From: Ulva prolifera
Taxonomy: Eukaryota > Chlorophyta > Ulvophyceae > Ulvales > Ulvaceae
Assembly: GCA_023078555.1 (NCBI GenBank)
Contig: CM041203.1
Location: 1,569,481-1,633,480, forward strand
Direction of reading: 5' to 3'
Length of the DNA: 64,000 nt
This document shows positions 6,601 through 52,000 of the stretch, one piece after another. The notes under the pieces were generated by a model, which was not told where the DNA came from, searched no databases, and saw nothing but the letters and a program-made list of their open reading frames with translations. Position numbers and translations under genes: made by a program. Position 1 is the stretch's first letter, and every line of letters begins with the position of its first letter.

Positions 6601-7477
6601 CTTCATCTCGGACACTGTTTCAAGTTGTTTTCAGGTAGGGCCGGATGGAGTTTGATAGCAACCTACTTCTGCTCTTGTGGCCGCGTGGTGTTGAGCGTGC
6701 ATGTGATCAAGGATCTGAGGGGCGGTGGGCTGCAGGTGGAGCTGGCGAATGACTGCGCCTTTGGCCTCGGGTCAGCGTGCTTCGCGGGCAGCCAGGCCCG
6801 AGCGCAAAAAGTAGGCCAGGAGATCCAGGCAGGCATGTTTGTCGCAAATGACTTCTCATCGAACGCGATGTGCCAGAGCCTGCCCTTTGGCGGAATCAAG
6901 GAGAGTGGCTTTGACAGGTGAGTGCCCTACGTGCTGCTTGCATTCTGTGACCCTGCTCATGCTGCTGCAACCCACAGGCGCCGCGGTTCGCTGATGGCGG
7001 CAAATCCTTGTGCCACGGCTGCGTCTGTGCATACATTTTTTGCACACCAAGCTAGCCATCGAGACGACAGGGGGCCCCTCATGTGCCACGTCACTGGGCA
7101 TGACTATGCAACCATGGTTCACCCACGTTCATCGCATGCGGCAGTGCATCACCACAGTTCCATCACCTGTGCCTACTGCATGCCTTGATGTTGCGGTCGC
7201 TGCTGGAGTCAGCAAGCTCTGATGCAGGTTTGGTGGCATCGAGGGGCTGCGGGGGATGTGCTATCCGAAGGTGGTGGTGCTGGACCGAATGCCAGCAGTG
7301 CTGCGCACAAACATCCCGCCACCGCTACAGTATCCGGTAGCAGGCTATGGCTTCGACTTTGTGCATGGACTGTGCAAGATGTTCTTTGGCAGCAGCATAT
7401 CTATGCAGCTGGCTGGACTGATGGCTGTGATCAAGCTGACGGTGATGCCTCCGAAGGATAAGCCAAAGGCTGCGTAG
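3668..7477 (+). CDS. Aldehyde dehydrogenase, ALDH22-like, membrane-anchored
   Basis: NAD(P)-dependent oxidation of aldehydes to acids is the family role; the natural substrate of ALDH22 is not settled. Model: join(3668..3815,3886..4031,4206..4333,4452..4590,4769..5009,5357..5686,6196..6440,6736..6917,7228..7477), about 602 residues, close to plant ALDH22A1 length. Residues 10-35 form one hydrophobic segment, a likely ER or membrane anchor. Seen motifs: [12 protein letters not shown] (cofactor site), [20 protein letters not shown] (general-base Glu), [11 protein letters not shown] (catalytic Cys) and [11 protein letters not shown]. Codon phases match at every junction. Intron 4 seems to use a GC donor at 4591; a GT donor at 4600 would add three residues. 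The acceptor of exon 7 (6184, 6196 or 6202) is ambiguous. An in-frame upstream Met at 3617 exists, but 3668 fits better because the hydrophobic anchor then starts near the N-terminus. Confidence 0.9.
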
Positions 7478-16059: not shown

Positions 16060-19000
16060 CTACTTCACATCAATCAGCTTGATCACCGACGCGTTCCCGA
16101 TGCGGTGCAGCGCCACCACGGTGTCCGCGGCCGCGAGGTAGTTCTGCATCTTGGCGTATTCGATCGCGGACGCGAGGATGTCGTCCGTCGTGTCGGTGTC
16201 CGACGCGCGGCCGGAGCCCTCCGCGAGCAGCGGCACGAGGCCGCGCATCACGAGGCACTGCCGCGCCGGCGTCTCGCCGGAGCACTTCCACTCGAGGTTG
16301 TCGATCGTGAGCACGGGGACCGCGACTGTGAGGACGGGGATGCTCGGGCGGTACTTCGCGACGAGCCGCGCGGTGGAGCCGCCCCGGGTGAGCACGATGA
16401 TGAGCTTCGCGTGCACCTGCACACACCGCGCATGCGTCGGCATCCGGGCTCTGCAAGGCGGCCTCTGTGTCCTGGGCCACCATGTGCTTGTTCAAAGAAC
16501 GAGTGGTTTAGGGGTGTGGCGCATGCACAGGCAAGGAATGCCTCATTCGTGCCAGCGCCTCCGGGAACACAGCCTACCCCGGCTGCGATGGAGGGTTGCC
16601 CAGAATTGATGAATGTGTGATGTACGTACGACGGGGTCCGGTCGGGTGTTGAGCCCAGGGCGGCAAGGCCGCGGTGGCTATGGGAAGAATCATGCCGCGC
16701 AACGCGAGCGCCCCCACCACCACCAACCCTACGCAACGCCGGGCCCCTCTCCGGCAGCCGCAGCGGCCCCTCTGCTCCACCCATACACCGCAACGGCCGC
16801 CCAGCACAGCACAGCACACACCGCGCTGGCGGCTGACCACCCGTGCACACCGGTCAATACACCTCCAACAATTACACATCAAGGGGGGCAGCGGCGGACC
16901 TTGTGCGCCGTGCGCACGGCCGACGACGCGAGCGACTCGAGCGGCGACATCGGCACCGGCGCCTCCTTCAGGATGCTCTTGAAGAGCGCGTAGTAGTCCA
17001 GCGAGCTCTCGGCCTCGCGGCAGATCTTCGTCATGACCTTGACCGCCTCGACCGGGAAGCTCCCGGCGGCCGTCTCCCCGGAGAGCATGACGCAGTCCGT
17101 GCCGTCGAGGACGGCGTTGGCGACGTCGGTGGCCTCGGCGCGGGTCGGGCGGGGGTTCTTGCACATCGACTCGAGCATCTGGGTGGCGGTGATGACCGGC
17201 TTGCCGGCCTGGTTGCACTGCTGGATCATCATCTTCTGTGCGAGGAAGATCTTCTCGGTGGGGATCTCCATGCCGAGGTCGCCGCGGGCAACCTGCACGG
17301 TGGCGGGGCTCCAGGCATGTGCTTTGCGGAGGGCGCAGGGGGGCTGTGGGGGGGCGGGTCTGCACTAGTGGCGGCAATCGCGCACGATCAGATAGTGCCA
17401 GTACATCCTTGGAGCGTCACGGTCTATCTCCCCCCATGCGTGACGTGCCCTGCAGCCGCCTGACCCTGGCTGCCGGCAGGCGCAGCACGTGTGTGGCTCA
17501 TGGGCCCTCGAGATTTGGACACAAGCATACACACAAGCATACGCGCCGTTGAGCATGCATGCGGGGCCGGCAGCCACACACGCGCGCTGTGCATCAGAGC
17601 ACCTCCCGCGCGCCACCCGCACCGCCACCCCCTCAGCACACAGCACAAGCCACCCCATTCCTCCTGCACTCCCACGCCGCCTGTGGGTGGTGGCTGTGCG
17701 TGCAGCGCGGCACAGCTCCGCACAGCTGCTACAGCTCCGCACGACCTCACAGCAGCGCCAAGACCCCACACCCCACCCCCCAGAGCACACAGCACGCACC
17801 ATGACGCCGTCGGACTTCTCGAGGATGACCTCGAAGTTCTGGATGCCCTCCTGGTTCTCGATCTTTGAGATGATGTGGATGTCGGCGCCGGCTTCGCCGA
17901 GGACGTCGCGGATGTTGTCGAGGTCCATGCCCTTGCGCACGAACGAGGCGGCGATGAAGTCGACCTTGTTCTTCACGCCCCACTGCACGAGGTCCTCTTT
18001 GTCCTTGTCTGTCAGCGTCGGCAGGTCGACGACGACGCCGGGGAGGTTCATGTTCTTGCGCTCCCTGCACGGCCGCCTGTGTGATGGACACCCATCCCCG
18101 GGTCATCGACATGTGCACACACAATACAATATATACCGTACTAAATGAAGTCCATCGACATCGAGGCCAGCGGTACATGGGGTATAAGCCAAAAAAATAG
18201 ATCGTCTATTTTCAGGGTCAGCCACCCCGAAAAATCATGATTAACTATACCTAGCTGCGTACCTAGAAACCCAGCGTCACGCGTTACATGTCGATGCACT
18301 TAATTTAGTGCGGTACTGTGATATCATGCGCTGCCATGATCGAGCGGATGCATCATATCCGCCTCATGCACCGCGGGTACTGTGTACCGGCTGAGCATCG
18401 ATGCGGATTGTGCCGTATAGACGCACGGCGTGTCGGCGTCAAGTCAGTGCGAGTACGCCGCGCTCATCGCAGGGGAGGCCCCGACGGACGCAGGGGAGGC
18501 CCCAACTCATCGCAGGGGAGGCCCCGACGGACGCAGGGGAGGCCCCAACGCGGCCGCCGCTCTGGTGCATGGCATCCGTGTGCTTCCGTGTGGTACGACA
18601 GCACAGATGCGGGAGTGCGTTTCCGAAAAACGATCCGCTCAGGGTACGATCTGCGAGCACGCGCGCGCGAGATCGACGCTGCTCGCAGAGTGTGCTCTGA
18701 GGGCAGTGGCTCGGGCTGGGATAGGGTGGCGCTGGACGTGAGGACTGATGCTGTGTGTAGATGTGGCTGTAGAATCAGCTGCAGGCCGTGAAGTGTGGCT
18801 GAGACTGTGCCAGTGCGCCGGCGGCTGCGGACACCCAGGACGGTATACCGGACCGGGAGTGCCGGTGTGGAATTCCGCACCCAGCCGCCACGATGGTGTG
18901 CACATGCTGCGCAGCGGCACGTTTGGTGCGTTTGTGTGCGCGATGTGATGGCTGCAAACGTGGGGTCGCTGGCGACCGCGAAGACATGCAGGCTGGGGGT

Positions 19001-20157
19001 TGAGACGATGCTCTTCGGTGCATTGCCCAGGCTGCCGCTGCGGCCGAACAGGGGCGAGGTGCCCGCCTGTTGCGTGATGCAGTTGCGAGGGCGGTGGGGG
19101 GCCCAGCGAGCTGGGCGGGGGGGGAGAGCAAGCGCACCCGATCGCGGCGGTGTTGACGCAGCGGCACTTGACATACTTCTCCTTAGGGAAGCACTCTTCG
19201 ACGGTGAGCACGAGGGAGCCATCGGCGCAGAGGATTTGTACGCCTGGTCGCACGTCCTCTGCGAGCTTTTGGTATGAGCATGCGATGAGGTTGGCGTTGC
19301 CCTTCTTCTCATACTCGCTTGTGACAATCACCTCCTGCACATGGAGGGAAGGTGAGAGGCATGCAATGCTAGGCACGAGAGCCTGTAGCAGCTTGTGTTC
19401 ACTGTGACGATTTTTGTGCGGTTTAGGCTGGGTGTCGCACCGAGCCAGCGACATAGGTCACTTTATCCTCGTTCTCAAGCAAGCCAGATCGGATCTCCGG
19501 GCCCTGCATGCACCACAGGACTGAGTGTGCCCCACAGCGCCAGCGGGCACATTCTGACGATGGATCGGGGCCAGCGAGGCCGAGAAATTGACCGACGACT
19601 CGGATGTGGTCAGTGGCCATCGTCGCCGACAGAGCGCCACACCTTGGTATCCAGCAGCACAGCGCACATGATGCGCGTCTTGATCATCGCCTGCTTCAGG
19701 TTGTCAAGAGTTTCCTGCAGCAAGCGCATGCATCTGAATTGACGGCCTGCGCGGTGGGCATCGGGCGCGCTGAGCCCATGTTGCTACCGCGGGCTCATCG
19801 GGCCGACACAAGGGACCTGGCTGGCGTATGCACGGGCACACCTGGTGATAGTCGTGAGTCCCATGCGAGAAGTTAAAGCGCGCAACAGACATGCCTGCTT
19901 TGAGCAGCTCGCATAGCGTCTCCACGCTGCGTGACACAGGCCCGAGCGTGCAGACAACCTGCAGTCAAATCGTGGTGGATCACGAGCCCCATTCGCGTAG
20001 ATGCACCATTTACAACATCCTACGCCAGAGCTTATTTTCACAGCGAGCACTGTAGTTATAATTGACATGCGGCGCATGTGCACTGTACCTTAGTCTTGCA
20101 CACATTGGACGGCGTCCCCGCAAGAAGCGCGTCCAGATCCAAAGGTGCGGTAGCCAT
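16060..20157 (-). CDS. Pyruvate kinase, plant-type cytosolic form
   Basis: Converts phosphoenolpyruvate and ADP to pyruvate and ATP, the last glycolytic step. Complete model: complement(join(16060..16416,16900..17292,17800..18064,19138..19334,19441..19503,19643..19714,19842..19958,20089..20157)), 1533 bases, 510 residues, exactly the usual plant cytosolic length. Every intron is GT-AG and every phase matches. The protein starts [14 protein letters not shown] with no transit peptide, so it is probably cytosolic. Motifs: [27 protein letters not shown] (ligand-binding Arg), [36 protein letters not shown] (catalytic Lys region), [21 protein letters not shown] and [10 protein letters not shown]. 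The C-terminal domain ends VIKLIDVK. Intron 5, about 1.07 kb, carries an inserted MITE-like element and a minisatellite. Confidence 0.96.
18132..18317. mobile_element. MITE-like element in pyruvate kinase intron 5
   Basis: Terminal inverted repeats of 28 bases (18134..18161 and 18288..18315) match at 25 positions; the left arm begins TACCGTACTAAATGAAG and the right arm ends TTAATTTAGTGCGGTA. Taking the outer TA on each side as target duplication leaves CCG...CGG termini, as in Stowaway/mariner-type elements. The element is about 180 bases, clearly more AT-rich than its surroundings, and has no coding capacity. It lies wholly inside an intron. Confidence 0.75.
18464..18555. repeat. GC-rich minisatellite in intron
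   Basis: Four copies of GCAGGGGAGGCCCC, alternately followed by GACGGAC and AACTCATC or AACGCGG, giving a higher-order unit of about 43 bases repeated twice. Confidence 0.88.
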
Positions 20158-23731: not shown

Positions 23732-26334
23732 CAGCCCACTCGGCTACGAGGGGGGCCTGAACAGCGCGAGGGAGGCCACCAGAGGTGCCCGGGGGGCGCC
23801 GGCATGAGCTACCATATATCATCGGCTGTACGGCACCGCTATAGCTGTGGCGTTGGTTTGATGGTCGCACCCTGTGGCGTGCGATTACTGCAGTCAAGCC
23901 GAGGGGTTTCGCGTATCGGAAGTGCCGTGCACCTCCTTCATGCGATGTGGTATATTGCAATGGCAAGCGGCTGACTGGCGCGCAGTAGGTAGCCAACAGC
24001 AGGCGAGGAGGTTCGGCCGTTTGATGGGCGCGCGCTGTGGCGCACGGACGTTGTAGTTATATGAGGGGTATGGTGCGTGGCCGGTGCCATGCACCGCCCT
24101 GCTGCACTGTAGTATGCTGCAGTAGCTAGCACCTCACTGGAGTGCAGCAGGGAGCCGGTGGTGAGGAGGTGTCGGCGTGCGGGTGAGAGCTCCTGCGGCG
24201 CCGCCTGTGGCGAGGCTGACAGGCGGCCCCGGCTGGAGATCGCATGCACGGCGGAGAATAAACAGGTGGCTGCACTGGGTCATGGTCACGAGGTTGTGGT
24301 CGAGCCGCAGGTGCTGCGTGCGGGTGGAGGGGGGGCAGATGCATGCGGTCTGTGTTGGCTGGAAGCAGAGCGTTGCCGAGAAGTGGGACGTGGTCGGTGT
24401 CGTGTCGTGCTTGACGTGCTGTTGTCTGCTTCGTGACCTGACCATCCAATGGACTGGTGGCAGCCAGCTGATGCTACACAGTGCAGATCAACGCTGTGGC
24501 GTGCTTGGCGTGGGGTCATCTGCTCTGCGGCTTCACCGTCCTCTGGACAAGTTTTTTTGACACAGGCCGACGAATGCGCCTTAAGGCAGGCTGTACGGTG
24601 TTCCGTCGACGCAAGGCTGATCTGCTGGCAGCCGGCCGGCGCCACACAGTGTGCGCTTCAGCCGCGTGGCGTGAGGGTGTGACGGGCGCAGACATGCCGG
24701 GATCGGAGCGCGTTTCATCGGTGTACTTGCAGACAATGCGGTGGTGTGTGCACAGCAGCTTTGTCGGCTGCCGTGTAAAGTATGGTCGTGCTACCCCTGC
24801 GGCGTGAGCCTTCACCCCATGCACGTGATGCCCATTGAAATCCAGACCGTGGGCTGCCGGCTATTCGTACCTCACTGAGGATCAAACGTTGGTCCTGCCG
24901 ACATGTCCAGTGCGATGAGCTTGGAACTCGAAGGTGGTTCGCACCTAGGTACACTTCAGCATCGACGATCAGCATTGACTACCGAGCTACACTTCAGCAT
25001 CGACTACCCAGAGCCTGTGAACAGCGCATTGGCCCTCAAAGGCAGCCAACGGCGTCAGGAAAGTAGACCGAGGCACCAGTTGCAGCGGTGCCGGAGAGGG
25101 TTCCCGTACCCTCGTTCGCACGATCCCTTGAGGTCCCCCACATCCTCTCGGCCGATGACTGTGCATCTCAGAGGAGGGCCGCCACCTGTGTGGCTTCCAT
25201 CGAGCTCCACATCAGCCGCCGCAGACCACAGGTCGCCAGGAGGTCCAGCGCACATGCATGGGGTGCATGTGTGCATGAGAACGTACGGAGTCCCAGGCCA
25301 CCGCTGTGCGTGCCTGCTGACGTGGTGGCTGTGGCATTTTCTGCAGTGCTCCTGCCAGCAGCAGCTGGTTTTCAGCCCGCTCCGCTCAAAGCACGTCCAC
25401 AGGGTCACACGAATTTCAAGGATTCGGGCTACAGGAGAGCCAGCTCTGCAGCAGGGTGGCTTCAGGCGGCATGTGTGTTGCGCCCACGTCTGCACGGCGC
25501 ACAATGCGGTTGTGCAGCCCCCTCATCAAGACCAACCAGCCCGAGCTCCGGACGCCCATTGACAGAGCGGCAGCAGCAAGCCAAGAAACAGCCTCATCCA
25601 CAAATCCGTTGCATGCGATCAGACGTGGCTTCCGCAGCCCTCCGGGTTCCGCACTTTCACCCTGACCCCCCAGGGACGGCTGAGGCAGTCCCAGCCACCA
25701 GAACTGTATGCATCTGCACAGTGCCAGGGCGTTGAGGGCCTTGAATTTGCACATGCAGCTTCAGACTAGACTTTAAAATAATAATTTAAAAAAACCTCCG
25801 AAATCAAGTACCTCGTTCGGCATGCGCGACCGCTGCGCATAGCGCCTCGCATAGCTAGGCCTAGGGCAGCACAGTCGGGCAGCTGTGGAGGTAGGGTTCA
25901 AGTTGAAATCTCTCTATCTTGATCTGATCAGCATCCGCTTCGGATATTTACCGCCACTGGTCTGCTGCCGGACTGGTGTCCGACAGATGTGTCATAAATA
26001 ATAATCAAGTATAAGCTGCCCAAAACATCTACACCACCGCCTTGATCACTGACTCGCGTGGACGGTAGTCGCACCGACACGCTTCACATGCCACACCCTA
26101 CGGCCTCCTATTTGTCCTACAATTTGAGGTTCCAGCCTCTAACAATGTCCACTACCTGGACCAAACAGCACTACACATGGCCATCTTTTCTCTCAGCCAC
26201 CACACCACACCACACCAAGATGTCCTCTACAGCCCCAGAGCCCCAGATCAAGTACCATTCTATAGGCCCCCCAACCACAAGCCCTCCCCCCCCCCTCCCC
26301 GACTTGGCTGTGGCACCGCCGCACTGACCTGTGC
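23732..26334. other. Intergenic region with an AT-rich patch
   Basis: No gene that I can support. The two strands carry long overlapping open frames around 24.9-25.75 kb; a minus-strand frame at 25416-25754 contains WLAAAALSMGVRSSGW but no known motif. Around 25766-25800 and 25990-26015 there are AT-rich stretches (AATAATAATTTAAAAAAA and ATAAATAATAATCAAG) that stand out from the GC-rich background. A CACTTCAGCATCGAC unit occurs twice near 24953-25005. Confidence 0.4.
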
Positions 26335-29300
26335 CTACCATGCCGGGTTCACAATCTCGAGGTACAGCACAGCACCCTGCACCACGAAGATCGCGGACCC
26401 CGCCAGCCACGTCGCCGCCGCGGCGGCCATCTCCTCCTGTGGGCTCAGCCCCTTCAGGAACCACCCCGTAGCCCCCCCGAGCATGAACAGCACGGACCCC
26501 AACCAGTTGAGGAACTCCAGCCAGTAGTTCACCGACCGCAGCTCTTCCAGGCGCAGCGGCGGCAGCAGGCCGCGCCACCACGAGTGCGAGCCCTCCGCCG
26601 CGAGCAGAAACGCGCCGGCCGCGAAGCACGTGCCGCCGACGAGGTACGGGAAGTCGAGCAGCCACGTCACAATCGGAGCGGCGAGGCCGGGTTGCGCGGT
26701 GTGAACGACCTCGGTAGCGCAGCCGACGAGGAATATGACGGAGCCGACGTACTGCAGGAAGATGCCGTAGAACGACAGGAAGTGGGAGTCGAGGGTGGAG
26801 GGGGCGGCGGCGTAGGTGACGGCTGGCGGGGGGCCCTTGCGGCCCCCCTCGTCCCACTCGTCCCACGCCTCCGAGACGTCCACATTGGTGACTTCGACGA
26901 AGCTGGCATAGCAGCCAAGGAAGAACGCGATTGCGCCGATCTGCATGCATGCGTGCTTGCGGGGGGAGGAAGAAGCAGCGTGCGGTTTGGCTTCAGGGGC
27001 AGTTAGCACTGTGTTAGTTGCATATATACATCCATCGACCCATGCCGGTGCTAGCAGGAGAGGCCCGGGGCGGCGCCCTTGCAAAGCGGAGACGCGAGTA
27101 GAACGCGACCTGCCTCAAGCGCAGTGTAACTGTCTGACAACCTGAACAACAGCTGTGGTTCTGCTGCCGGCAGTCCTCCATGCACCGCTGTGGCTGCCGC
27201 CCGTACACATCCCAATGAGGCGACGATGGCATGAGATTGCGTCCGCCGCACACGTGGGCAGCTGTGCCCTTGTCCAGCACAAAGCCGCAAGCGCCGGATT
27301 GGTTGATCTCAATACACAGCTCCTGATAAGACCTTCCCTGCTCGTCAAGGACGGAGCATACCGCCATGAACCGGCATGCATGCAGGGCAAGCCGCCGATC
27401 CACTCTGATGTGACTCTGTTGGCTGATAGTGCACATGAACTGATACAGCAGCAAAGCAGGCATGGAGGGGGGGGGGGGGTCGCACGAAGAAAGGGACGTC
27501 GACACAGGCCAGCCTCATGCGTGGCGACCACTCGCCCTCCCAGTACCCAGGATGCAGCTCCGACGCAACTCCCACCACGAAGAGCAGCGAGCCGAGGAAG
27601 AAGAGGGGACCGACCCAGAAGGAGACGCGCTTCACGGGGTTACTCAGGGCCGCCTGGATGCGGGCCTTGCTGAAGACCGCAAACGGCAGCAGCTCCAGCT
27701 GCTGCTCAACCTCCTGCCTCTGCGCGCGGTTGCGCCGGTGCTGCCGTGCCTCCCACGTGTAGCTCCTGCAGGCCGTGCGCAGGTGCCGTCATTCCGCGGC
27801 CGTGCCGAGAAGGGCCTGCCATGCATGGCGCGGCTGAGGACGCCGTGGGCACTCATTCCGCTGCCGTGCCGAGAAGGGCCTGCCATGCATGGCGCGAATG
27901 AGGACGCGGTGGTTGTGCAGTTCGCCTCGGGTGGTTGCGGTGTGGCGGGCGTCGGGAGCGACATGGTGCTCGATGTCACTGCGCAGGTGCAAGATCACTA
28001 CGAGGATGCAGGCTGGGGGGGGGGGGGGGGGACGGGGACGTAGGCGATGTGTGACCGCATCTCATGTGCAGATGCATGTGGAGGGTGTCCAGTGGTGTTG
28101 GTGCCTGGCGATGTATGTATGTCCTCTTGCAAAGGACAGAGGCCGGGCATGCAACCGGTTCTCAGAGTTCTTCACTCTCGAATTCCGAAACGAATTCACT
28201 CATTCATGGCACTAGGCCGGGCACGAGCGCGTACCACAGCCCTGCTGTGATATATGTATGACTGCATGAGTACATGTCCATGTGTATAGGAACCCTGACA
28301 GGTGCACAGCCGGGACTGATCAAGGCAGCTGAGCCAAGCTCTGCTGCAAACTCAAATTCAAAACTCGAACCTCATGCCATGGGGCTAGTGCCTGCATTGT
28401 GCATGCAAATGTAGTTACTAGAGAGGGCCATGCATGTGGCCGTGTGCCTCTCGGCGACCAAACCTGCAAGCTTATGACTGTAGACGATGGTGCGGGGTTG
28501 TTTTCGTATCTGTCTTTTCTGGAGGCCGCCCATGCAACTTGTTGAACAGTCGTGCCCATGTACGTCGGATCATCAATGGTAAAAGGAATAGTGCGGGAGG
28601 GGCACAGTCTGCTCAGAGGACTGCATGATGTTTGATAGATGACAGGTACAACAATGGCTGCATGGCAGTAAGTGCATGCTTGGGCTGCTGGACGGAGGGG
28701 TGAGTGCTCGCAGCGTGACTCACTTATGCATTCACACAAAATAGTGACTTTCCCATTGTACCAACGTTGATGGTGGTGGGAACTCTTTAAAGTTGTGCTG
28801 TTGGGCCAGCACGAAGGTCAGGCACGGTTCGTTAACAAATTTGGGCAGGCTGTGTGGGAATATGTGGGCCTGAGTGGTGAGCCTGCAGCAAAACTTTCGG
28901 GGACAGGTGGTGACGCACTGTTCACCGATGACAGTGGTAATCTTGGTCACGAACTTCTTCGACAGTCCTCCCAGATGCTGTGGAAACTGATCGGTGACGT
29001 CCAGGCCATGTTCTCGCTCAAGAGCATCTGCAGCCCTTCTCCACCCGCGTAGCCCCAGGGGAGCTGCAACCGGAAGGCATTTAGCACAAAAAGAGACTTT
29101 GGCGGTCGAGATGGGATCATGGCCGATTGGCCGCACCTGCAGGTGGATGCTGTGCAGGCAACAAAGCCTCTGCATCTGGGGGCCGAGTGAGCAGGATGTC
29201 ACTGACTGATGCTTCACCTGCATCAAGCAAACTCTAGGCGTGAGACCGAGCTGCGAGCACTCTTAGAGCACATAATGGAAGCTACGCTGCATCATCCGGG

Positions 29301-29548
29301 TGTCGAATGTTTGGGCACAGACATACGGACTGCCGATGCCTTGACATTACCAGCACTGCAGCTGTTTGGCGCTTGAGGAGGAGCGAAGCGACATACGGCA
29401 AGCGGCATGAAACAATTATATTTACATCTACATGGTTACTCAAACGCAAGCAGCACATTGCGACGGTGGCGCTCCTGAGAGGCCCGCTGTTGTTGGCAAC
29501 AGGTGGCATGCATGATGTAGACGTTCTCGTACCTAGAGGGTCGGACAT
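26335..29548 (-). CDS. Six-helix membrane protein with three YrhK-like units (paralogue A)
   Basis: Model: complement(join(26335..26940,27486..27765,28919..29063,29533..29548)), 348 residues. The same exon phases (1, 2, 0) and nearly the same sizes occur in the neighbouring paralogue, which supports the model. The N-terminal 60 residues are soluble (GLRGWRRAADALEREHGLD, QFPQHLGGLSKKFVTK). Next come three pairs of hydrophobic helices, each with a W/Y...LGS-LF type first helix: FWVGPLFFLGSLLFVVGVAS with IGAIAFFLGCYASFVEV; FYGIFLQYVGSVIFLVGCAT with YLVGGTCFAAGAFLLAAEGS; and WLEFLNWLGSVLFMLGGAT with SAIFVVQGAVLYLE. This pattern resembles YrhK-domain proteins of bacteria and algae, whose function is unknown. 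Exon 1 is only 16 bases (MSDPL plus one base); the GGTAC donor context is conserved in both copies. Confidence 0.8.
27791..27907. repeat. 64-bp tandem duplication in intron
   Basis: Two copies starting at 27791 and 27855, sharing CCGTGCCGAGAAGGGCCTGC followed by CATGCATGGCGCG, lie in intron 2 of membrane-protein paralogue A and are absent from the equivalent intron of paralogue B. Confidence 0.9.
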
Positions 29549-30485
29549 GATTCAAGGCAGAGCCCGACAAGGCTTCCAGCAGGGCAGTTGGCCGCCGCAG
29601 GTCCCAGCGAACGTCTCGAGACAGATATGCTGTGTTGCCTTAGGACGTTCGCATGCCACGTACAGCACTGGCCGCTTAAGGCGTATCTTTCCCAGTCTGT
29701 GCAGAGAGCCGCAGATTGAGTGTGCGAGGGTTTACCATAGTGACCATGTTTGCTTGTTCGTGCTCCGCAAGGTGTAAACGCAGGCCAGGCATCACGCGCA
29801 CACACGCGCAAACGACTAAGCGCACCTCGAGCAAGGCGCATCCAAAGCTTTGTGGAACCTTCCCCATGTCAGGCATTCAGCCATGGCCTTATCAGCTTGG
29901 GCAGATCGATACTCCACCGCAGCAGCCCATCGGCATTGCTGTGTAGCGTGCACCGCGCAGGCCAACGGTGTCGATAGCAGCCATCAGCGCGTAAAGTGTA
30001 CATCGCAATCCACATACATCAGGAAACAACATATTTAATCCCGGTCATGGCTGGTCCTGCGAACTTTGAAAGCACGAGCAGGCCAAGATACCTGCACTAA
30101 GGATGGACGAGTCCACCACTTGAATCTGCCGTTGGATGCCTACCAGGCGCTCAACAAGCTGCCGCTCGAGAAAATGAAAGTGTCGACAGGGAAAAATTGA
30201 CACAACGCAGACCTGCATTTGCCTCTGGCAGCATGTATGGCGCAACATTTTATTACGGTCTCCAACCCCACACATGTAAGCCCACAGGATGCTGACTATG
30301 ACCTGGGTTTGCTGGGTTGATCTTCCCGCTTGTGCGGTGCACGGTGTTCCTGCAGCGCTATCTGCTCGCCTTTGCCCTCGTAACACGCCTCATGCCACGA
30401 TGGAAGCCATGTCACCCCACAAGCATCTCCCCTCTGCCCCCCACCCCTCCGCCGTGCGTCGGCGGCGCTTCGCATTCACCCGTGG
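29549..30485. other. Spacer between tandem paralogues
   Basis: Upstream region of paralogue A and 3' flank of paralogue B. No supported coding sequence. A minus-strand frame ending at 29533 reads into the ATG of paralogue A in another frame and ends at the TAG next to the splice donor, so it is not the gene. Confidence 0.45.
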
Positions 30486-32707
30486 CTACCACGCCGGATT
30501 CACAATCTCAAGGTACAGCAGCCCACCCTGCACCACGAAGATCGCAGACCCCGTCAGCCACGTCGTGGCCGCCGCCGCGATCTCCTCGCGCACACTCAGC
30601 CCCTCCAGGAATCCCGCGACCCCGGCGAGCATGAACAGCGCCGACCCCCACCAGTTCATGACCCCCACCCAGTGGTTCGCTGACCGCAGGCCCTCCCGCC
30701 GCAGCGGCGGCAGCAGGCCGCGCCACCACGAGTGCGAGCCCTCCGCCGCAAGCAGAAACGCGCCGAGCGTGAAGCACGTGCCGCCGACGAGGTTGGGGAA
30801 GTGGAGCAGCCACGTCACGGCGGCTTCAGGGAGGTCAGGGTGCGTGGTGTGGACCACCTCGGTCGCGCAGCCGACGAGGAAGATGACAGAGCCGGCGTAC
30901 TGCAGTAGAACGCCATAGAAGGAGAGCATGTGGTGGTTCAGGGTGGAGGGGACGGCGGCGTACGTGACGGCCGGCGGGGGGCCCTTGCGGCCCCCCTCGT
31001 CCCACTCGTCCCAGTCCTCGGAGACACCCACGTTGTTCACCTCGACGAAGCTGGCATAGCAGCCGAGGAAGAACGCGATTGCGCCAGCCTGCATGCATGC
31101 GTACATGTGTACGGGGGGCTGGACTGCCCATCTTGGACAGCGGCGCATGCCAGACTCAACACCAGCTGCCTCAGCCACTGGCGCACATCGCCACGGATTT
31201 GCCACTCCTCTGCCCCCTGGAACTACAGACAGCAGTGACATCATACGGGCTGGCCTGCAGCTTCCTGGCAACCTTTTGCATGGGTCTATGGTCCGCATTG
31301 TGTCCAGCACACAAAAACGCCAGCGCCATTCACACTGCACAGCTTAATTAGGATACAAGGCACCTTAATTAGGATACAAGGCACCCAACAGACTCCCCTT
31401 GATGAAGCCCGGGCACCCGCCACAGGCCCAGCCGCCCCGCTCAGTTCCCCCGCAGCGCACACCGCTTCATTCAGCAGCAAGGCAGCCGGCGCGGGGGTGG
31501 GGGGCGAGAACGCACCAAGAAGGGGCCGTCCACGTACGCCAGCTCCATCAACCGCGACCACTCGCCCTCCCAGTACCCGGCGTCGAGCTCCGACGCAGTC
31601 CCCCCGACGAAGAGCAGCGAGCCGAGGAAGAAGAGGGGCCCGACCCAGAAGGAGACGCGCTTCACGGGGTTACTCAGGGCCGCCTGGATGCGGGCCCTGC
31701 TGAAGACCGCAAACGGCAGCAGGTCCGGCTGCGCGTCGACCTCGTGCCGCTGCGCGCGGTTGCGGCGGTGATGCCGCGCCTCCCACGTGTAGCTCCTGCA
31801 GGAGGCCACGGTAGCCGTTGCTGGACAATGGGATTCCGAACCATGCAAGGGCTGTGGTGTTGGGCGCGAACACGCACAGGCTATGCAGAGCTTTGTGACC
31901 TACACTTGTCTGTGGGGGGTTTCCAGGTGGTGTACCCCTTCGGTATATGTGGCCCCATTAAATCGGAGTTGTCAATATCCAATAGGATACGGCTCAGTAA
32001 ATTCAGATTTACTTGACTCGTGTATGGCCTGCACTGGAGTATCTCACAGGCTTATTTGTGGGATCTTCTTCTGGAGGTGGAGGTCGATGGTCGTGGAATT
32101 GGCTAGGTGTCTGCGTTTTCGACAACCTGAAGGCCGGGCACAGGCGCGGGGGCAAGCTGTTTGGCAACATGGGAGCATGGGTGTGGCTGTGAGTCTGCAG
32201 CAAGTGTTCGGGGACAACTGGTGCCGCACTGTTCGCCTATAACAGTGACGACCTTGGTCAAGAACTTCTTCGATGTGCCCGCCAGATGCTGTGGGAAATC
32301 CTGGCGGGTGGTCAAGTCCAGACCACGCTCTCGCTCCAGAGCATCTGCAGCCCTCCTCCAGCCCCGTAGCCCCGGGTGATCTGCAATCGGAAGGCACATT
32401 CAAGGGCAGCAAAGCAAAGCAAAGCATTATTGGATGAATTTGCAGTCGTGATGGGCTCATGTCCTACAAACATGCGGTCAGGCTCACACTGCCTCAGCCG
32501 TGGGAGTACTGTCTGGAACCTGACGCATGGCCATGCGCGGCGAAACGCCACATGAGAAGCTAATACCACACGCTTGAAGCCGTGTAGTTCCGATTCGCCA
32601 ATCGTCAACAGTTTTTCGCGATCTTGCGGAAGTCCGACTGCTGTTGGTACCACAGGTGGCATGCATGTCGTAAGCTCAGCGTTTTCAGTACCTGGAGGTT
32701 CGGGCAT
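30486..32707 (-). CDS. Six-helix membrane protein with three YrhK-like units (paralogue B)
   Basis: Model: complement(join(30486..31088,31516..31795,32230..32380,32692..32707)), 349 residues, in the same orientation as paralogue A and immediately upstream of it. Exon 3 encodes 93 residues in both copies, and the last exon differs by one codon. The soluble N-terminal segment has GLRGWRRAADALERERGLD, then DFPQHLAGTSKKFLTK and VVTVIGEQ, two residues longer than in A. Helix pairs: FWVGPLFFLGSLLFVGGTAS with AGAIAFFLGCYASFVEV; FYGVLLQYAGSVIFLVGCAT with NLVGGTCFTLGAFLLAAEGS; WVGVMNWWGSALFMLAGVAG with GSAIFVVQGGLLYLEIV. A loop between pairs one and two holds the acidic DEWDEGGRKGPPP. Coding sequence is far better conserved than the introns, so both copies appear to be under selection. 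Confidence 0.8.
31965..32017 (+). repeat. Dispersed short repeat, copy 1
   Basis: Contains GAGTTGTCAATATCC then AGGATACGGCTCAGTAAATT and CAGATTTACTTGAC. Located in intron 2 of paralogue B. Related copies lie near 39103 (minus), 45255 and 52271. Confidence 0.7.
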
Positions 32708-33669
32708 GATCCAGATGGCAGGCCGACCAGGCTCAGATTTGAAGAGACAGCGTCGGCATCATCCAGCGTAAGCTGCAGCAGAAGTGATTCTTTGTCTCTG
32801 GCACACGCGCACGCCCGTGCTGCACTGAGCGCTCAAGCTATATCTGTTTTAGTGCAGGGCGCTGGAGAACTAGCACGAGGAGTCGTAGCTCGGTAGCCCG
32901 TACTTATGTATTTGTTCGCGAGATCTGGGCCTGTCTCGGTTCTCACCGTTTTGGACCATGGCTGGACCGATCGCGTCCACGAGTCACGGCAGTGGCGTCG
33001 TGGTGACCAGTGAACTCTTAAGACAATTGTGCAATTCCCTGCTGAACAGTTTCCACGCAAACGGCCCTCCAATCGCCATGGTGTGGATGTTCAGAGATGG
33101 CGTGCGGAGTCCCTGGGCCACGCGGACGGTGTAAAGAGAGAGCAAGTCGGGCCAACTCAGCTCCATTGAATCCCCCGGATCCACTCGGGGTCCTGGCCCC
33201 GAAGACACAGGATTCAAGCGTAACAAATTTCACAAGTGACGGAGAATTTTGTGACCTGGGTGTCCCATGGTGCAGCTGCAAGAATACAACTGACGGTGGT
33301 TGCCGTGTTAAGACACACCCATTGTGTCAATGAAACGGCACCAGCGCCGCTGGGGCTCTGCTGTTCAATGCGTAAACCACCACCCCGGTTGCGGCGAGGC
33401 CAGAGGAGGGGCGCCTCGGAGGTGCTACTGAAGCGGTGCTGTGCGGCCAGAGGGGCCACAGCAGCTGTGCCTTCTCCCTGCACCTGCAACCCTCCGCCGA
33501 CTTTCACAACAACATACTGGGGGAATGGGCGAAGGGTCAGCGGCTACGGATCGCCCACGACTTCATGCATGAGACTGCAGGTAGCTGGCATATAGGTTGT
33601 AAGTCCACGACTGCAAGGTCCCGGTGAAGCACATGTATATACTCTTTGAAGATCAGCAGGCTGTAGCTA

Positions 33670-33718
33670 CTGGGGCCAGGCTGTAGGCTGGCCCCAGTCA
33701 GTCTGTCCCTTGACTGAC
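33670..33718. repeat. Two adjacent hairpins
   Basis: CTGGGGCCAG and CTGGCCCCAG (33670..33679 and 33688..33697) form a 10-bp perfect stem with an 8-base loop. GTCAGTC and GACTGAC (33697..33703 and 33712..33718) form a 7-bp stem directly after it. Confidence 0.8.
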
Positions 33719-34026
33719 TAGGGTGCATGTCTACCCTGTGGGCTGAGGGCCGCGCCCGAGAGGATTCACACAGGCTGCGCATGTGGCGCGGTGTCCACTG
33801 GTGATTCCGGCGCGGGTGCGTGGGGAGCCGGAGGACCCTGCCGATTGACACTGAAGATTCACTTGCACTGCCGCTGGAGCGTGAGGCGTGACCCCGTCAC
33901 GGCGCCTGCGGCAGGGCGCCGTTGCGGCAGGGCGCGCAATGGTCGGTGGCGAGGGTGTTGGTTGGTCCGTCTGCCTGCCTCAACGCTGCGGCCGCACGCT
34001 GGCCGCAGTAGAGACACACCACACAC

Positions 34027-36058: not shown

Positions 36059-38801
36059 ATGGGTCAGTTTGCGCGGGACATCATCACCAATCTCGGCATG
36101 GACGACAGCTTCTTTGTGGTGGACCTCGGCCGTCTGTGCCGCCTCCACCAGGCACGCCTCCACGCACTCTCCTCTCAGAGCCTCACGAAGGGAAGCATCC
36201 CCTTCAGTTGCACTGCCATGCTCGTGGGCCTGCATGCCGCTTCAGCTACTCGTGATCAGGCCGCTTCTCGGCAGCTGTTGACCGCCTCGTGCAGCGCAAC
36301 ATGTACTACATAGTATGCAGCTATAGCTCGGCGCCTATCTGAGCAGATAACGCTAGCTCTGCGGAGGTGTATGTATGCTGCACATGTGTATTTGCCTGAT
36401 TGCATAGCCGTGTTCATTGGGACATTGACCACTCCGAAATCCGGGACCACATGTGCTGGGAAGCTTGCACGGGCCTCTGGAGGCGGCAACCTTTGCTTCG
36501 CTTGAAGGAATTGTCCCAACCGTGGTGCACTCGACCTGATTTTCACCGCTCCTGCGCTTATCCCCCGTCCCAGTCACACACCTGCACGCCGCCCATCAGC
36601 TGTGTCATCTCGGCCGCCATGTCACGCACAGGAATGGATCCCGCAAGCACAACCATATGACTTCCCATGCAACAAACACGTGCGTCCGCGAAGCTGCGCG
36701 ACCATGCATGTGCGGACCACATGCCACCATGCATCCAGGCGTTTGTTTCGGCAATGCCCCGCGTGCGGCCACACTACGCCGTCAAGTGCAACCCTGACCC
36801 CGTCATGCTGCGCGTGCTGGCCGCGCTGGGCGCCGGGTTTGACTGCGCGTCGGCAGGGGAGGTGCAGGCGGCGCTCCAGGCCGGGGCGGGCCCAGAGGAC
36901 ATCATTCTCGCGCAGGCCTGCAAGCGGCCGGTGGATCTGCGCGTGGCCGCGGCGTCCAACGTCCGGGTGTGGCTCCCCCGCCCCTCTGTTGTGGCCCAGA
37001 TGAGATCGACCCCGGTCAATTTTGCGGCATATTCGCAGTGACTCCGATCGTGTTGTGCTGAATCGTGTGCCCAGACGTGCGGGGCCGCCATCGCGGCAGG
37101 TAGCTGTACCCATGTAGCAGAACCCTGATGCGCCGCGGGGTGCATATGCATGCATGTATGCATGCATGCGCCACTTCATGGGTAGCCTCTGCTCGCCGTC
37201 TACACCGAGACAGCTCATGCCCCCACCTTCCCTGCACCTGCCTCAACCAAATCCGCCAAGATGCCAACTAGTTCAAGTCGTCAGATAAGCCGCAACTCTG
37301 GTGGTGCACTGAAGCAAGGGCTGCGCATGCAGCTGACGACGTTTGATTGCGAGAGTGAGCTGGACAAGATCGCAGAGGCCTGGCCCGCCGCACATGTCGT
37401 GCTGCGCATCCGCGCCGACGACCCGACCGCGGACATCCCGCTCAGCAGCAAGTTCGGCGCCGACCCTGCCGACGACGCCCCGGCGCTGCTCGCCGCCGCG
37501 GCGCTCCGCGGCCTCTCCGTTGCTGGTGTGGCCTTCCATGTCGGCAGCGGCAGCCACGACGCGTCCGCGTACGCGCGCGCGATCCACCTCGCGCGGGCGG
37601 TGTTTGATCGCGCCGCGGCGCTCGGCATGTGCCCATGGGTCGTGGACATCGGCGGCGGGTTCTTCGGGCGGTTCGGCAGCGACGGCCGGGTGGACATGAA
37701 GGAGGTGGGGGCGGCGGTGAGTGCGGCACTGGAGGCGGCGTTCCCTGTGGCGGAGTGGCCGGGCCTGAGAGTGATCGCGGAGCCGGGGCGCTACTTCGCA
37801 GAGGCCTGCGGCACGGAGTTTGCGTTTGTGCACACCGTGAAGGAGTCCGCGAATGGGAGGCAGTACTATCTCACTGACGGTGCGGCGCCGCTGCCTCGAA
37901 GCTTGTTCTTCTTTCGTATCTGTGAACGAGAATCAGGGACAGCGGTTTCATGTGCCTGAGGGCGGCGGATCTGGGGGGTGGAAGCGACGGGCATCGCCGC
38001 ATGCATGCCACCTCTGGGAAAGAAAGTGCAGGAGGCATCGCGGCTGCGGCCAGGGGGGAGAGGGCTGCAGGTCCTCATGTGCCAGCAGATATGTGTCTGT
38101 TTGAGACATCTCGTATGCACCACGCCACCCAGTGGACGCTCAGCACTGGAGGTTGTATGTGACTGGTTCTGATACAGCGATTTGCCGGAAAAGAGACTCA
38201 GAAAACTGCACTTACTTTGAGCATTCACTCGAGCACACCGCCCAGGTTAATAAAATTGAGGCTGGGAGATGACGGTCTGCATGATCTGGACGCTATTGTG
38301 CACCGCACCACTGCAACCACTGCACCCACCACAATCGCCATCACCGCCGCATGCATGCATGCAGGCCTGCATGGATCGTTTGCCGTCCTCGGCACCGGCC
38401 GCCTCCGCGCCAAGGCCCACATCCTCCGCGGCCCCCACCTCCCGCGCCCCGCGCCGGAGCAGACGGCCGCCCGCGTGCCCAGCACCGTGTTTGGGCCGAC
38501 ATGCGACAGCTGGGACCGCATCATGCATGAGGTGCCGATGCCGCTGCTGCGGCGCGGCGACTGGCTGCAGTTCCCGGACCGCGGCGCTTACAGCCTCGCC
38601 CTCGCGTCGGCTTTCAACGGCATCAGCGCCGCGGAGGCGCCGCTGTTCTATGTGTGGAGTGACTTCCCGGTGGCGGGGAGCGCAGAGGGGGCGGTGGTGT
38701 TGAGAAGGGGCTGTGTGGCCAGAGGGGGCGCGGCAGGGGTGCCGGAGCGGCAGCTGTGCCTGCTCTCCACACCTGCAGACCTCGGCTTACTTCCACAATG
38801 A
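36059..38801 (+). CDS. Ornithine decarboxylase
   Basis: PLP-dependent decarboxylase producing putrescine, the first step of polyamine synthesis. Model: join(36059..36151,36739..36966,37333..37879,38365..38801), 434 residues, all phases consistent. Motifs: MDDSFFVVDLG; RPHYAVKCNPDPVMLRVLAA with the PLP lysine; GFDCASAGEVQ; SVAGVAFHVGSGSHD; WVVDIGGGF; RVIAEPGRYFAEACGTEF; VFGPTCDSWDRI with the active-site Cys; WLQFPDRGAYS. This is the eukaryotic group IV type rather than bacterial lysA. Intron 1 appears to use a GC donor (CAG|GCACGC at 36152); with it the spacing to the YAVKCN motif equals that of animal enzymes. The C-terminal 50 residues after FYVWSDFPVAG are atypical, and the last exon might be spliced again. 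The frame is open upstream of 36059, so a longer N-terminus is possible. Confidence 0.93.
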
Positions 38802-49039: not shown

Positions 49040-52000
49040 ATGCCGAAGCGTACTGCGCACGAGCGCGTCCAGCCGGCTGTCGCAAGCAGCGATGCCGCAA
49101 GAGCGGATGAGGACTTCCCTGAGAACCTCATCGTCGACGGTAGCAGTGATACTGGAGAAGAGATCGATTCCGGGTCTGATTCCGAGGGAGATGATCTGGG
49201 CACTGGATTGACAGGTACGCTTGCTGGAGCGTAGCGCACACACAGAGCGGCTGCGTGTCCTCACGACTCAATCTCGCACTGCCGGCGCATCACAATGTCT
49301 CAATATAACATTCATGTATCATTGGTGCCCCGGAATGTGCAGGACTGGATGCGATCATCGCAGCAGCCCGTGCTCGCCATCAGTCCCCGGCGGTGCCTGC
49401 AACAGAGGGGCCAGAAACCGACGCCAGCACACCCAGCGGGCACGCTGAACCAGACAGTAATGGCTCAGCTGGTGGCAGTGGTAAGGGCCGGTCTAGCAGT
49501 GCAGCCGAACCAGCGCAACCGGAGGAACGCGACGGTGAGGACGCAGGAAACACCGAGGTCGAGCCCCCAGACAGCCCACGGATACCACGTCGTGTCCCAA
49601 AGTCCTCTCTTCTAAGGGATCCAGCGTTCTTAGCGGATGCCGGCAGCGACTCCTCCGAGGACGAGCGCCCTTCCCGCAACACTGTGGGGAACGTGCCTCT
49701 GGAATGGTATAAACACGAGGAACACATCGGCTACGACAGGTGCGCCTCCCTGCACAGGGGGTTTCACCAACACAGGTGGTGTGCCTCGTGTTCACATCAC
49801 TGAAGCCCAGGTCCTGGCTGAACTCACACCCACCATCGCACCCGTGCAAGTCAGTCGATCTGTGCGCCCACTGATGCATCCTCTTTCCACCTCACCTCGC
49901 AATGCGCCACCAACAGCCGCTTGGAGGGCATCATTCCGCATCGGGCAGCTCAGCGTCATCGGCCTGGGCTGCCTCAGTCACCCTCACCTATCAGGGCCAC
50001 CATGCCAATGCCTCCAACAGCAAACTGCTGTGTACTCCCACACGGGCCAAGGGCCAGCTGACCCCGTTTCCCCCTGCACCACTGCCTGCACAAGCACGCC
50101 CATGCGCAACCCGTCCAGCAGCCACACAACCCGGTCGAACCAGCGTACAGTGCATCACCCACATGGGTGGGTTCCGCTTGCGCTGGTTGTGGCTGTGGCA
50201 TTGGTGCGTCGGGCTGATGCGGTGTGGCTGTGTCCTTGCGATGCTCGCTGTTTCCGCGGTGCTTCGGCGCCTTTGTCCTTGCAACACGTCCGCCATGTCC
50301 ACACTGGCGCCCGCGCCGCTGCAGAGACGGCGCGGCCATCCAGCGCAAGGGCAAGGCCGGGGACATGCTCGACACGCTGCTCGCGCGCAACGACACCCCC
50401 GGCGCCGCGCTGCGCACCCTGTACGACCCCTACAACGACGAGGAGCTCACGCTCTCGCGCTCCGAGCTCCGCATGCTGCTCAACATCCACCAGGGCAAGA
50501 CGCCCCACCTCGAGGTCGACCCGTACGCGGACCACGTCGACTGGTACAGCAACACCGTCGACCCCTTCCCCGCGACCAACGCGCCGATCCCGAAGCGCCG
50601 CTTCCGGCCGTCGGTGTGGGAAGAGCAGAAGATCGTCAAACTGGTGCCCCCCCTCCTCTACTCCACGGCCGTACCTGTGCAGCACCTGCATGCAGCTCCC
50701 AGCGCGTCCATTGCATGGCGTGAAGTTGTCTGCATGGCGATATGAGGTGTACAATGCATGGTGGCCATGCATGTGCGTTGACCGCAATGCCGCAGAGCTC
50801 ACCCCCGCGCTGACGCACACATCAACAGCGGTGTTGGCGTGCAGGTGCGCGCCATGCGGCGCGGCTGGATCAAGCCCCGCGCGGAGCGCGAGGCCGCGGA
50901 GGAGCCGCAGGTGTACCTCCTCTGGGGGGACGACGGCGTCGCGGGCGCCGGCAAAACGGGCTCCGGCCTCACCCGCATCCCCGCGCCGAAACCCGACCTC
51001 CCCACGAACGAGGAGAGCTACAACCCCCCGGCGGAGTACCTGCCGACGGCGGAGGAGCGTGCTGCGCATGCTGCGCTGCCGGAGGAGGAGCGCGGCGGGC
51101 CGCTGCCGCGCGCGTTCGGCAGCCTCCGCGCGGTGCCGCAGTACGAGCGCATCGTGCATGAGCGCTTCGAGCGGTGCCTGGACCTGTACCTGTGCCCGCG
51201 CGTGCGGAGCAAGCGGCGGGAGTTCAAGGCGGACGACCTCGTGCCGAAGGCGCTGCCGCGGCCGTCGGAGCTGCGGCCGTTCCCGACGAAGCGGTGCATC
51301 ACTTACAGCGGACACACCGGGAAGGTCCGCCTCTGGTTCTGGTTCGGACGCTGGGGTGCTTCTTCCCAGCATGCACGATCTTGAGACTCGGTGGCCGCGC
51401 ACTGCGCCGCCTGAGCAACGGCTGCGGGTGGAGGCGGCATGCGTGTGGCCATACCCCGCTTTGTGTATTTGGTGCATTTGTCTGGCCAGTGGGGCGGCCT
51501 GTGCTTGCTGTCGAGCCGACACCGCACACCCGTCGTGGCGGTATCTGTTGCGCCTGCTTCGTGGGTGTGCGATGTACTGGTGCCGCCTGTGGCCGCTTGT
51601 GCTGCGTGCTGCGCTCACAGCACGTGTGCTGCGCAGGTGCGCTGCGTCAGCCCGGACCCGACGGGGCAGTGGCTGCTGACGGGCAGCGACGACGGCAGCA
51701 TGCGGATGTGGGAGGTCCTCACCGGCCGCTGCTGCCGTCAGTGGGACTTTGGCGGCAAGGTGTCGTCAGTCGCGTGGTGCCCGGACCCGGCGCTGCGGCT
51801 CGCGTCCGCCGCGGTCGGCAACCGGCTGGTGCTGGTGGACTCCGGCGTCGCGCCGGCGGCGGCTGCGGAGGCGGTGGCGGCGGCGTTGACGCCGCCAGAG
51901 GTGGACGCGGAGGCGGCCGGGGTGGTCGCGCGGTGGGTCGCCGGCGAGCAAGGGGGCCTCGATGTGTGCCACAACCACCCGCTACGGGGGGTACACTGGC

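Follow-up and report, generated by a model that had tools for sequence, protein, structure and literature searches.

What kind of membrane protein do two neighbouring genes of the green alga Ulva prolifera encode, and is its threefold design an invention of the alga? The question arises from a stretch of 64,000 nucleotides (GenBank assembly GCA_023078555.1, contig CM041203.1, positions 1,569,481 to 1,633,480), referred to as the window, in which the genes, here called A and B, lie side by side on the minus strand. A sequence-only reading of the window had described them as tandem paralogues with three helix pairs of the YrhK type (Pfam PF14145) behind a conserved soluble N-terminal segment, and had regarded this as a new architecture under purifying selection. 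Sequence comparison places A and B, as divergent eukaryotic members, in a bacterial family of six-helix, three-pair YrhK-like proteins. By the same measure, the three-unit design with its N-terminal segment is no algal invention, since a bacterial kind of three-unit protein carries the same motif and its profile covers A and B from this motif to the last helix.

Kinship of the algal proteins

YrhK family searches (E ≤0.001; E ≤0.01 for an assorted set) gave matches in 2 of 299 genomes from the phylum of Neobacillus (1 above the Pfam cut-off), 4 of 292 from the phylum of Calothrix (2 above), 13 of 296 from the phylum of Streptomyces (6 above) and 33 of 398 from the phylum of Panacagrimonas (32 above), and in none of 12 assorted genomes. 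The bacterial three-unit proteins fall into two kinds. The classical kind, which starts with MPH, was found in Cyanobacteriota and Pseudomonadota; L124 comprises three Pfam YrhK stretches (101 bits). Three YrhK matches also lie within one frame of 301 amino acids in G1250. In proteins of this kind (L123, L124, L179-L181, L217) a well conserved MPH(L/H/M) is followed by T/V-x-R-x-R, and their occurrence also includes one viral-collection contig. A further weak YrhK match (G1090:C37:241237-241386, E 3.4e-4, under the cut-off) lies within an open frame of 4173 amino acids.

The second kind, first met as weak YrhK matches in the phylum of Streptomyces, occurs in Actinomycetota and Cyanobacteriota and shows an N-terminal W-x-[S/A]-R-x-x-R in many members. 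A profile of six members matched 15 of 246 Actinomycetota genomes, five of which (G691, G698, G757, G761, G766) had supplied profile rows and match by construction. Of 194 cyanobacterial genomes the same profile matched 6, with strong scores (102-219 bits) in five; the sixth, a weak match in G431, is a classical protein and was kept out of the counts, leaving 5 of 194 for the second kind. Duplicate loci of one gene, L213 and L192/L197, a frame split in G707, were also left out of counts, profiles or trees, except that the N-terminal stretch of L192/L197 was used in the motif profiles. The sequence-only reading had based its claim of novelty on YrhK proteins usually having one or two units; this ground is removed by the three-unit proteins of Cyanobacteriota, Pseudomonadota and Actinomycetota.

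A profile of 16 bacterial members matched A with 75.1 and B with 68.0 bits, while the best of 2000 shuffles reached 11.1 bits, and a profile of 23 bacterial sequences gave 90.1 and 84.0 bits. With the profile of 16, a single alignment spans positions 19-272 (A) and 11-273 (B) of 277, running from the N-terminal motif through the final helix. This continuous match to a bacterial-only profile (68-90 bits versus 11 for shuffles) contradicts the assumption of a new architecture. When alignments were compared with each other, the algal pair and the second kind gave a profile-profile probability of 98% over 237 columns with about 22% identity, whereas the classical MPH kind reached 63% in a partial alignment that was out of register. 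Shuffling only the segment before pair 1 lowered the score in 1000 of 1000 cases for A and B with both profiles. Taken alone, the N-terminal motif scored above all 4000 shuffles with one profile and was marginal with the wider one, where B only equalled the best shuffle and A scored lower than two of them. The motif F-x-T...W-x-[S/A]-R-x-x-R, common but not universal in the group, is present in both algal proteins.

The algal proteins share with the second kind the N-terminal motif of many members, the three pairs and six helices with G-x3-F, and differ from it by introns, tandem duplication, a long branch and the lack of a glutamate decarboxylase (GAD) gene found adjoining. The classical MPH proteins also comprise three YrhK pairs at a similar size, but their N-terminus differs and they form a separate clade. 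Phylogenetically, the alga groups with two members from Cyanobacteriota, but the support is weak (81/67) and its branch long (2.66); once the second-kind cyanobacterial rows are removed, it lies outside the actinobacterial rows. For these reasons, a cyanobacterial origin of A and B is not claimed. No published description of the architecture was found in the partly available literature that mentions YrhK, so that it may be undescribed in print.

The kinship to YrhK itself, as named in the sequence-only reading, holds by way of bacterial intermediates, while no algal unit or whole protein reaches the curated Pfam cut-off of 26.1 bits. With A, B and every single unit of A, YrhK ranked first or was the only family among the Pfam matches (reported to E 10), always under this cut-off, with 13.6 bits for A and 9.3 bits for B as whole proteins and at best 16.7 bits for the units of A. 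The two bacterial intermediates tested as whole proteins pass it (L137 with 37.3 and L139 with 33.4 bits). In the comparison with single-pair YrhK, the scores were 31.6 for pair 1, 23.5 for pair 2, the weakest, and 27.0 for pair 3. With Pfam PF14145 and Bacillus subtilis YrhK the algal proteins have the helix-pair unit and its GS-x2-F signature in common; they differ in lying under the cut-off, and many of the YrhK proteins gathered here are single-pair. A six-frame Pfam YrhK search of the entire Ulva prolifera genome gave no match, which is ascribed to the divergence of the algal units, one of them split by an intron, and was not read as absence. Likewise, plain searches gave no relative of A or B in bacterial genome contigs or viral contigs and none of A in plasmids, since the relatives are too distant for such searches. 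The NCBIfam search with A gave no match and the PDB sequence search with B two weak ones (E 0.13 and 0.71). Residues 1-81 of A gave a tubulin domain as their sole Pfam entry (E 0.067, 13.3 bits versus a cut-off of 30), which was rejected as chance.

Could the algal genes be unrelated to the bacterial family, with three pairs that arose independently and a likeness that is due to generic helical hairpins? Taken by themselves, the algal units show little likeness to single YrhK domains (15.1-21.3, compared to 15.0-19.4 for column shuffles with three of the profiles), and algal pair 2 matches bacterial pair 3 (32.3) slightly better than bacterial pair 2 (28.0), both of which would fit such an origin. 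It is opposed by the one unbroken match at 68-90 bits, compared to 11 for shuffles, by algal pairs 1 and 3, which match bacterial pairs 1 and 3 best, and by the N-terminal motif lying in register. An independent origin is already disfavoured and very improbable.

Gene models and protein anatomy

The gene models, obtained from the genomic sequence, comprise the following exons:

29533..29548, minus strand: gene A, exon 1, 16 bases with the ATG; donor GTACGAGA
28919..29063, minus strand: gene A, exon 2, N-terminal soluble segment (GLRGWRRAADALERE, FPQHL, SKKFVTK); donor GTGCGTCA
27486..27765, minus strand: gene A, exon 3, end of the N-terminal motif (YTWEARQHRR), linker and helix 1 of pair 1
26335..26940, minus strand: gene A, exon 4, helix 2 of pair 1, pairs 2 and 3, stop
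32692..32707, minus strand: gene B, exon 1, 16 bases with the ATG
32230..32380, minus strand: gene B, exon 2, N-terminal soluble segment; donor GTGCGGCA
31516..31795, minus strand: gene B, exon 3, end of the N-terminal motif (YTWEARHHRR), linker and helix 1 of pair 1
30486..31088, minus strand: gene B, exon 4, helix 2 of pair 1, pairs 2 and 3, stop

The products comprise 348 (A) and 349 (B) amino acids, with identical residues in 272 of the 350 columns of their alignment. The six introns all have GT-AG borders, and their phases match between the copies, which bears out the claim of two genes in the same orientation with a shared four-exon plan, and the proposed first exon of 16 bases is the same in both models. 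Seven families of direct repeats were found in 25000-34000, five of which link A to B and lie on exons and flanks of up to about 25 bases, while the other two lie inside introns of A. Intron 2 of A holds a 60-base tandem repeat segment (93%, window 27789-27912). A six-frame protein search of the whole genome (88.9 Mb, 44 contigs) gave no third copy; among the best candidates scored, the six exon matches all belonged to A and B.

The ratio of nonsynonymous to synonymous substitution rates (dN/dS, NG86) between A and B was 0.36 overall, with a bootstrap 95% interval of 0.26-0.51, in agreement with the purifying selection that had been claimed. For the N-terminal 54 residues it was 0.39 (95% 0.15-0.92, 1.5% of bootstraps reaching 1), so that the constraint on this segment, too, was upheld. 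The pairs showed 0.27 (pair 1), 0.40 (pair 2) and 0.46 (pair 3; 0.23-1.00), and the differences at codon positions 1, 2 and 3 amounted to 39, 40 and 89. Misassembled, contaminating or dying genes could be suspected, as the models come from genomic sequence and exon 1 has only 16 bases. Against this, the introns are GT-AG at equal places in both copies, no stops occur, the dN/dS is 0.36 with differences in excess at the third codon position, and ordinary eukaryotic genes flank A and B on either side, which leaves such an explanation a negligible chance. The gene models and the membership of A and B in the second three-unit kind are regarded as nearly certain.

The soluble N-terminal part ends in a basic stretch, YTWEARQHRRNR in A, and is followed by the linker and the helices, six hydrophobic segments in each protein. 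Since the helix number is even and the basic stretch precedes helix 1, the arrangement suggests that both termini lie in the cytosol, where the short basic N-terminal segment is probably located. The three helix pairs are homologous to each other, with profile-profile scores of 54.1, 60.3 and 57.0 from alignments combining algal and bacterial rows, while 60 column shuffles of each pair never exceeded 15.5. When only the two algal rows are used, the scores fall to 24.4, 27.5 and 27.0. The three internal repeats seen in the sequence-only reading were thus confirmed. The signature that it gave for each pair exists as well, but with a different spacing, which was corrected to [W/Y]-x4-[F/Q/N]-x2-G-S-x2-F.

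All six helices of A and of B contain G-x3-F (in A: G112/F116, G149/F153, G213/F217, G249/F253, G295/F299 and G328/F332). All 23 bacterial sequences agree in these columns, except at G249, where 21 of 23 do. Helix columns conserved in bacteria and alga are mostly G and F without a conserved charge; N292 is kept in 22 of 23. An AlphaFold model of exon 4 from two sequences consisted of helices only, at a predicted local distance difference test (pLDDT) of 49.6 and a predicted template modelling score of 0.40.

Glutamate decarboxylase beside the bacterial genes

The surroundings of the family gene were read in 17 actinobacterial regions (about 7.5-12.5 kb) and in 6 regions from the phylum of Calothrix (about 8 kb, 5 genomes). 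L219 and L222 belong to one genome; of the 17 actinobacterial regions, 16 yielded the family gene itself. GAD lies within about 6 kb of the family gene at 12 of the 23 loci, with TIGR01788 above its cut-off at all 12. At nine loci (L199, L202, L203, L209, L214, L218, L220, L221, L223) it is directly upstream on the same strand, at L204 it is convergent and at L208 and L215 it lies about 1.6 kb away. The gap between the two genes is only 6 bases in L220 and L221, and the predicted starts overlap in L218 and L223. In the phylum of Calothrix, four of six regions have GAD directly upstream on the same strand. Among the predicted-gene families of the 17 actinobacterial regions, GAD occurs in eight and no other, apart from the family itself, in more than three. 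The best PDB matches of the GAD of one region were solved glutamate decarboxylases.

The linkage extends to whole genomes. GAD was found in 13 of 15 actinobacterial genomes with the family compared to 27 of 231 without it (Fisher p 7e-10; E ≤1e-60, 38 of the 40 genomes above the cut-off). The searches for family and GAD in these 246 genomes were taken as one draw, as the number is the same and the handles agree wherever both searches list them. In the tree, the GAD-linked family genes are spread over several branches, and they come from two phyla. Altogether, a partnership of the family with GAD in bacteria is well supported and highly probable. No publication mentioning a link between YrhK and GAD was found in the partly available literature on YrhK, PF14145, GAD with cyanobacteria and acid resistance.

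Three of the loci showed further features. In G614 (L203, 5042-6586, plus strand), immediately following GAD, a single open frame encodes a class-II glutamine amidotransferase together with the membrane part; this fusion could be real or an assembly effect. One strand of L220 (1-6572, plus) carries a relative of the sulfatase at a neighbouring locus, MarC, GAD, the three-unit YrhK-like gene and MscS. At the end of a viral-collection contig (L216, 500-2657, plus strand) a family member adjoins a gene for a ClC chloride channel. Bacterial ClC proteins are tied to acid resistance; as the channel was met only once, and the genes predicted in the 17 actinobacterial regions include no ClC relative, it was rejected as a partner and not used as evidence.

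Possible function in bacteria and in the alga

Decarboxylase-linked exchangers such as GadC, AdiC, CadB and PotE take an amino acid in and release the amine, while the decarboxylation consumes protons. In E. coli, GadC serves GadB as exchanger of glutamate and γ-aminobutyric acid (GABA). The bacterial family gene is a frequent downstream partner of GAD, and by analogy its protein would serve amino-acid decarboxylation at the membrane, in the favoured form by exchange or release of the substrate and the amine product, i.e. glutamate and GABA. The algal pair would have a similar task, in the transport of amino acids or amines or in pH balance. As a whole, the best explanation, in which the family works in the membrane as partner to an amino-acid decarboxylase and perhaps exchanges substrate for amine, is given a probability of about 0.42. 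Exchange as the mechanism in bacteria is a tentative proposal from this analogy, with odds slightly below even, and the same class of role for A and B is rather doubtful.

The likeness to known transporters is one of plan. As with the GadC-type antiporters, the bacterial family represents a membrane protein encoded beside GAD; GadC has 12 helices and belongs to the APC superfamily, of which no Pfam match to A or B was obtained to E 10. The mitochondrial carrier family SLC25 comprises three repeats of two helices, similar to the plan of A and B, and again no carrier-family Pfam match was obtained to E 10, with no search aimed at the carrier signature.

Several observations weigh against the partner function. 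At 11 of the 23 loci GAD is not nearby, including L213, where the automatic gene pick missed the family gene and GAD lies 3.3 Mb away. Two of the 15 family-bearing genomes (G666, G817) have no GAD, the Fisher p overstates independence because the genomes are related to each other, and at L209 GAD and the family gene are each split into two frames. In the alga, a Pfam scan of 20 frames of the window gave no GAD near A or B, and the sole GAD-like trace of the genome is a weak exon on another contig (38.9 bits versus a cut-off of 380.4), to which a second search led as well. The only structure model is unusable at its pLDDT of 49.6. Moreover, according to the part of the source available, yrhK of Bacillus subtilis belongs to the lysozyme-response operon of sigV and does not adjoin GAD, the function of YrhK is described as unknown, and sigV activation was affected only slightly when it was overexpressed (PMC8287880).

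Two other explanations are serious rivals to exchange. The family could comprise general membrane proteins of envelope or acid stress that alter packing or ion leak, with GAD co-transcribed owing to the shared stress. The position of yrhK in the lysozyme-response operon, with its function described as unknown (PMC8287880), fits this proposal at first sight; as far as the source was available, this context clearly favours none of exchanger, anchor and stress protein. MscS and MarC beside GAD in L220, the single ClC in L216 and conserved helix columns of mostly G and F without a conserved charge, apart from N292 (22 of 23), point in the same direction. A general stress role would not predict that GAD is one strongly recurring partner with gaps of a few bases at some loci, which is more specific, and it is considered less likely than exchange.

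The protein could also act as a membrane anchor or regulator of the decarboxylase, with a basic N-terminal segment (W-x-[S/A]-R-x-x-R) to which GAD or another enzyme would dock. Such a role agrees with the position of the sole conserved soluble part ahead of helix 1, with the conservation of its W (18 of 18) and R (20 of 20) in the bacterial sequences that have the column, and with the amidotransferase in one frame with the membrane part beside GAD in G614. This fusion is a single case that could be an assembly effect, and the motif is unrecognisable in L135, L136, L188 and others, although L135 and L136 have GAD nearby. Docking is somewhat less probable still than the stress function.

For the algal pair, the neighbouring genes of the window were considered:

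36661-38798, plus strand: exons of a decarboxylase of the ornithine/arginine/diaminopimelate type (PF02784/PF00278), divergent from B and about 4 kb away
4697-6918, plus strand: aldehyde dehydrogenase exons
16063-19457, minus strand: pyruvate kinase exons, an ordinary neighbour
50218-53429, plus strand: exons of a BOP1-like gene with WD repeats, an ordinary neighbour
55595-57231, plus strand: methyltransferase/sterol methyltransferase exons, an ordinary neighbour

One exon of the decarboxylase next to B had ornithine decarboxylases as best PDB matches, while its best NCBIfam entries, far under cut-off, were diaminopimelate decarboxylases. A functional tie of A and B to this ornithine-decarboxylase-like neighbour is only a lead, noticed in one genome after the GAD result. 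For the aldehyde dehydrogenase, the best NCBIfam entry was succinic semialdehyde dehydrogenase in three of four frames, far under the cut-offs, and the best PDB match of one frame was a betaine-aldehyde dehydrogenase.

In the widest form of the proposal, the three-unit proteins would be unrecognised amino-acid/amine exchangers of threefold pseudosymmetry that take the role of GadC in Actinomycetota and Cyanobacteriota. The alga would have obtained the family from bacteria, possibly from the cyanobacterial side, and its pair would work with amine metabolism beside the ornithine-decarboxylase-like gene. This combination is speculative and improbable.

The recurrent pairing with GAD in two phyla leads from an unknown YrhK-like membrane protein to a specific, testable function. 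If it is an exchanger, the family would represent a second answer, besides GadC, to the question of how GABA is moved in GAD-bearing bacteria, and A and B place a eukaryotic branch in the three-unit YrhK-like family.

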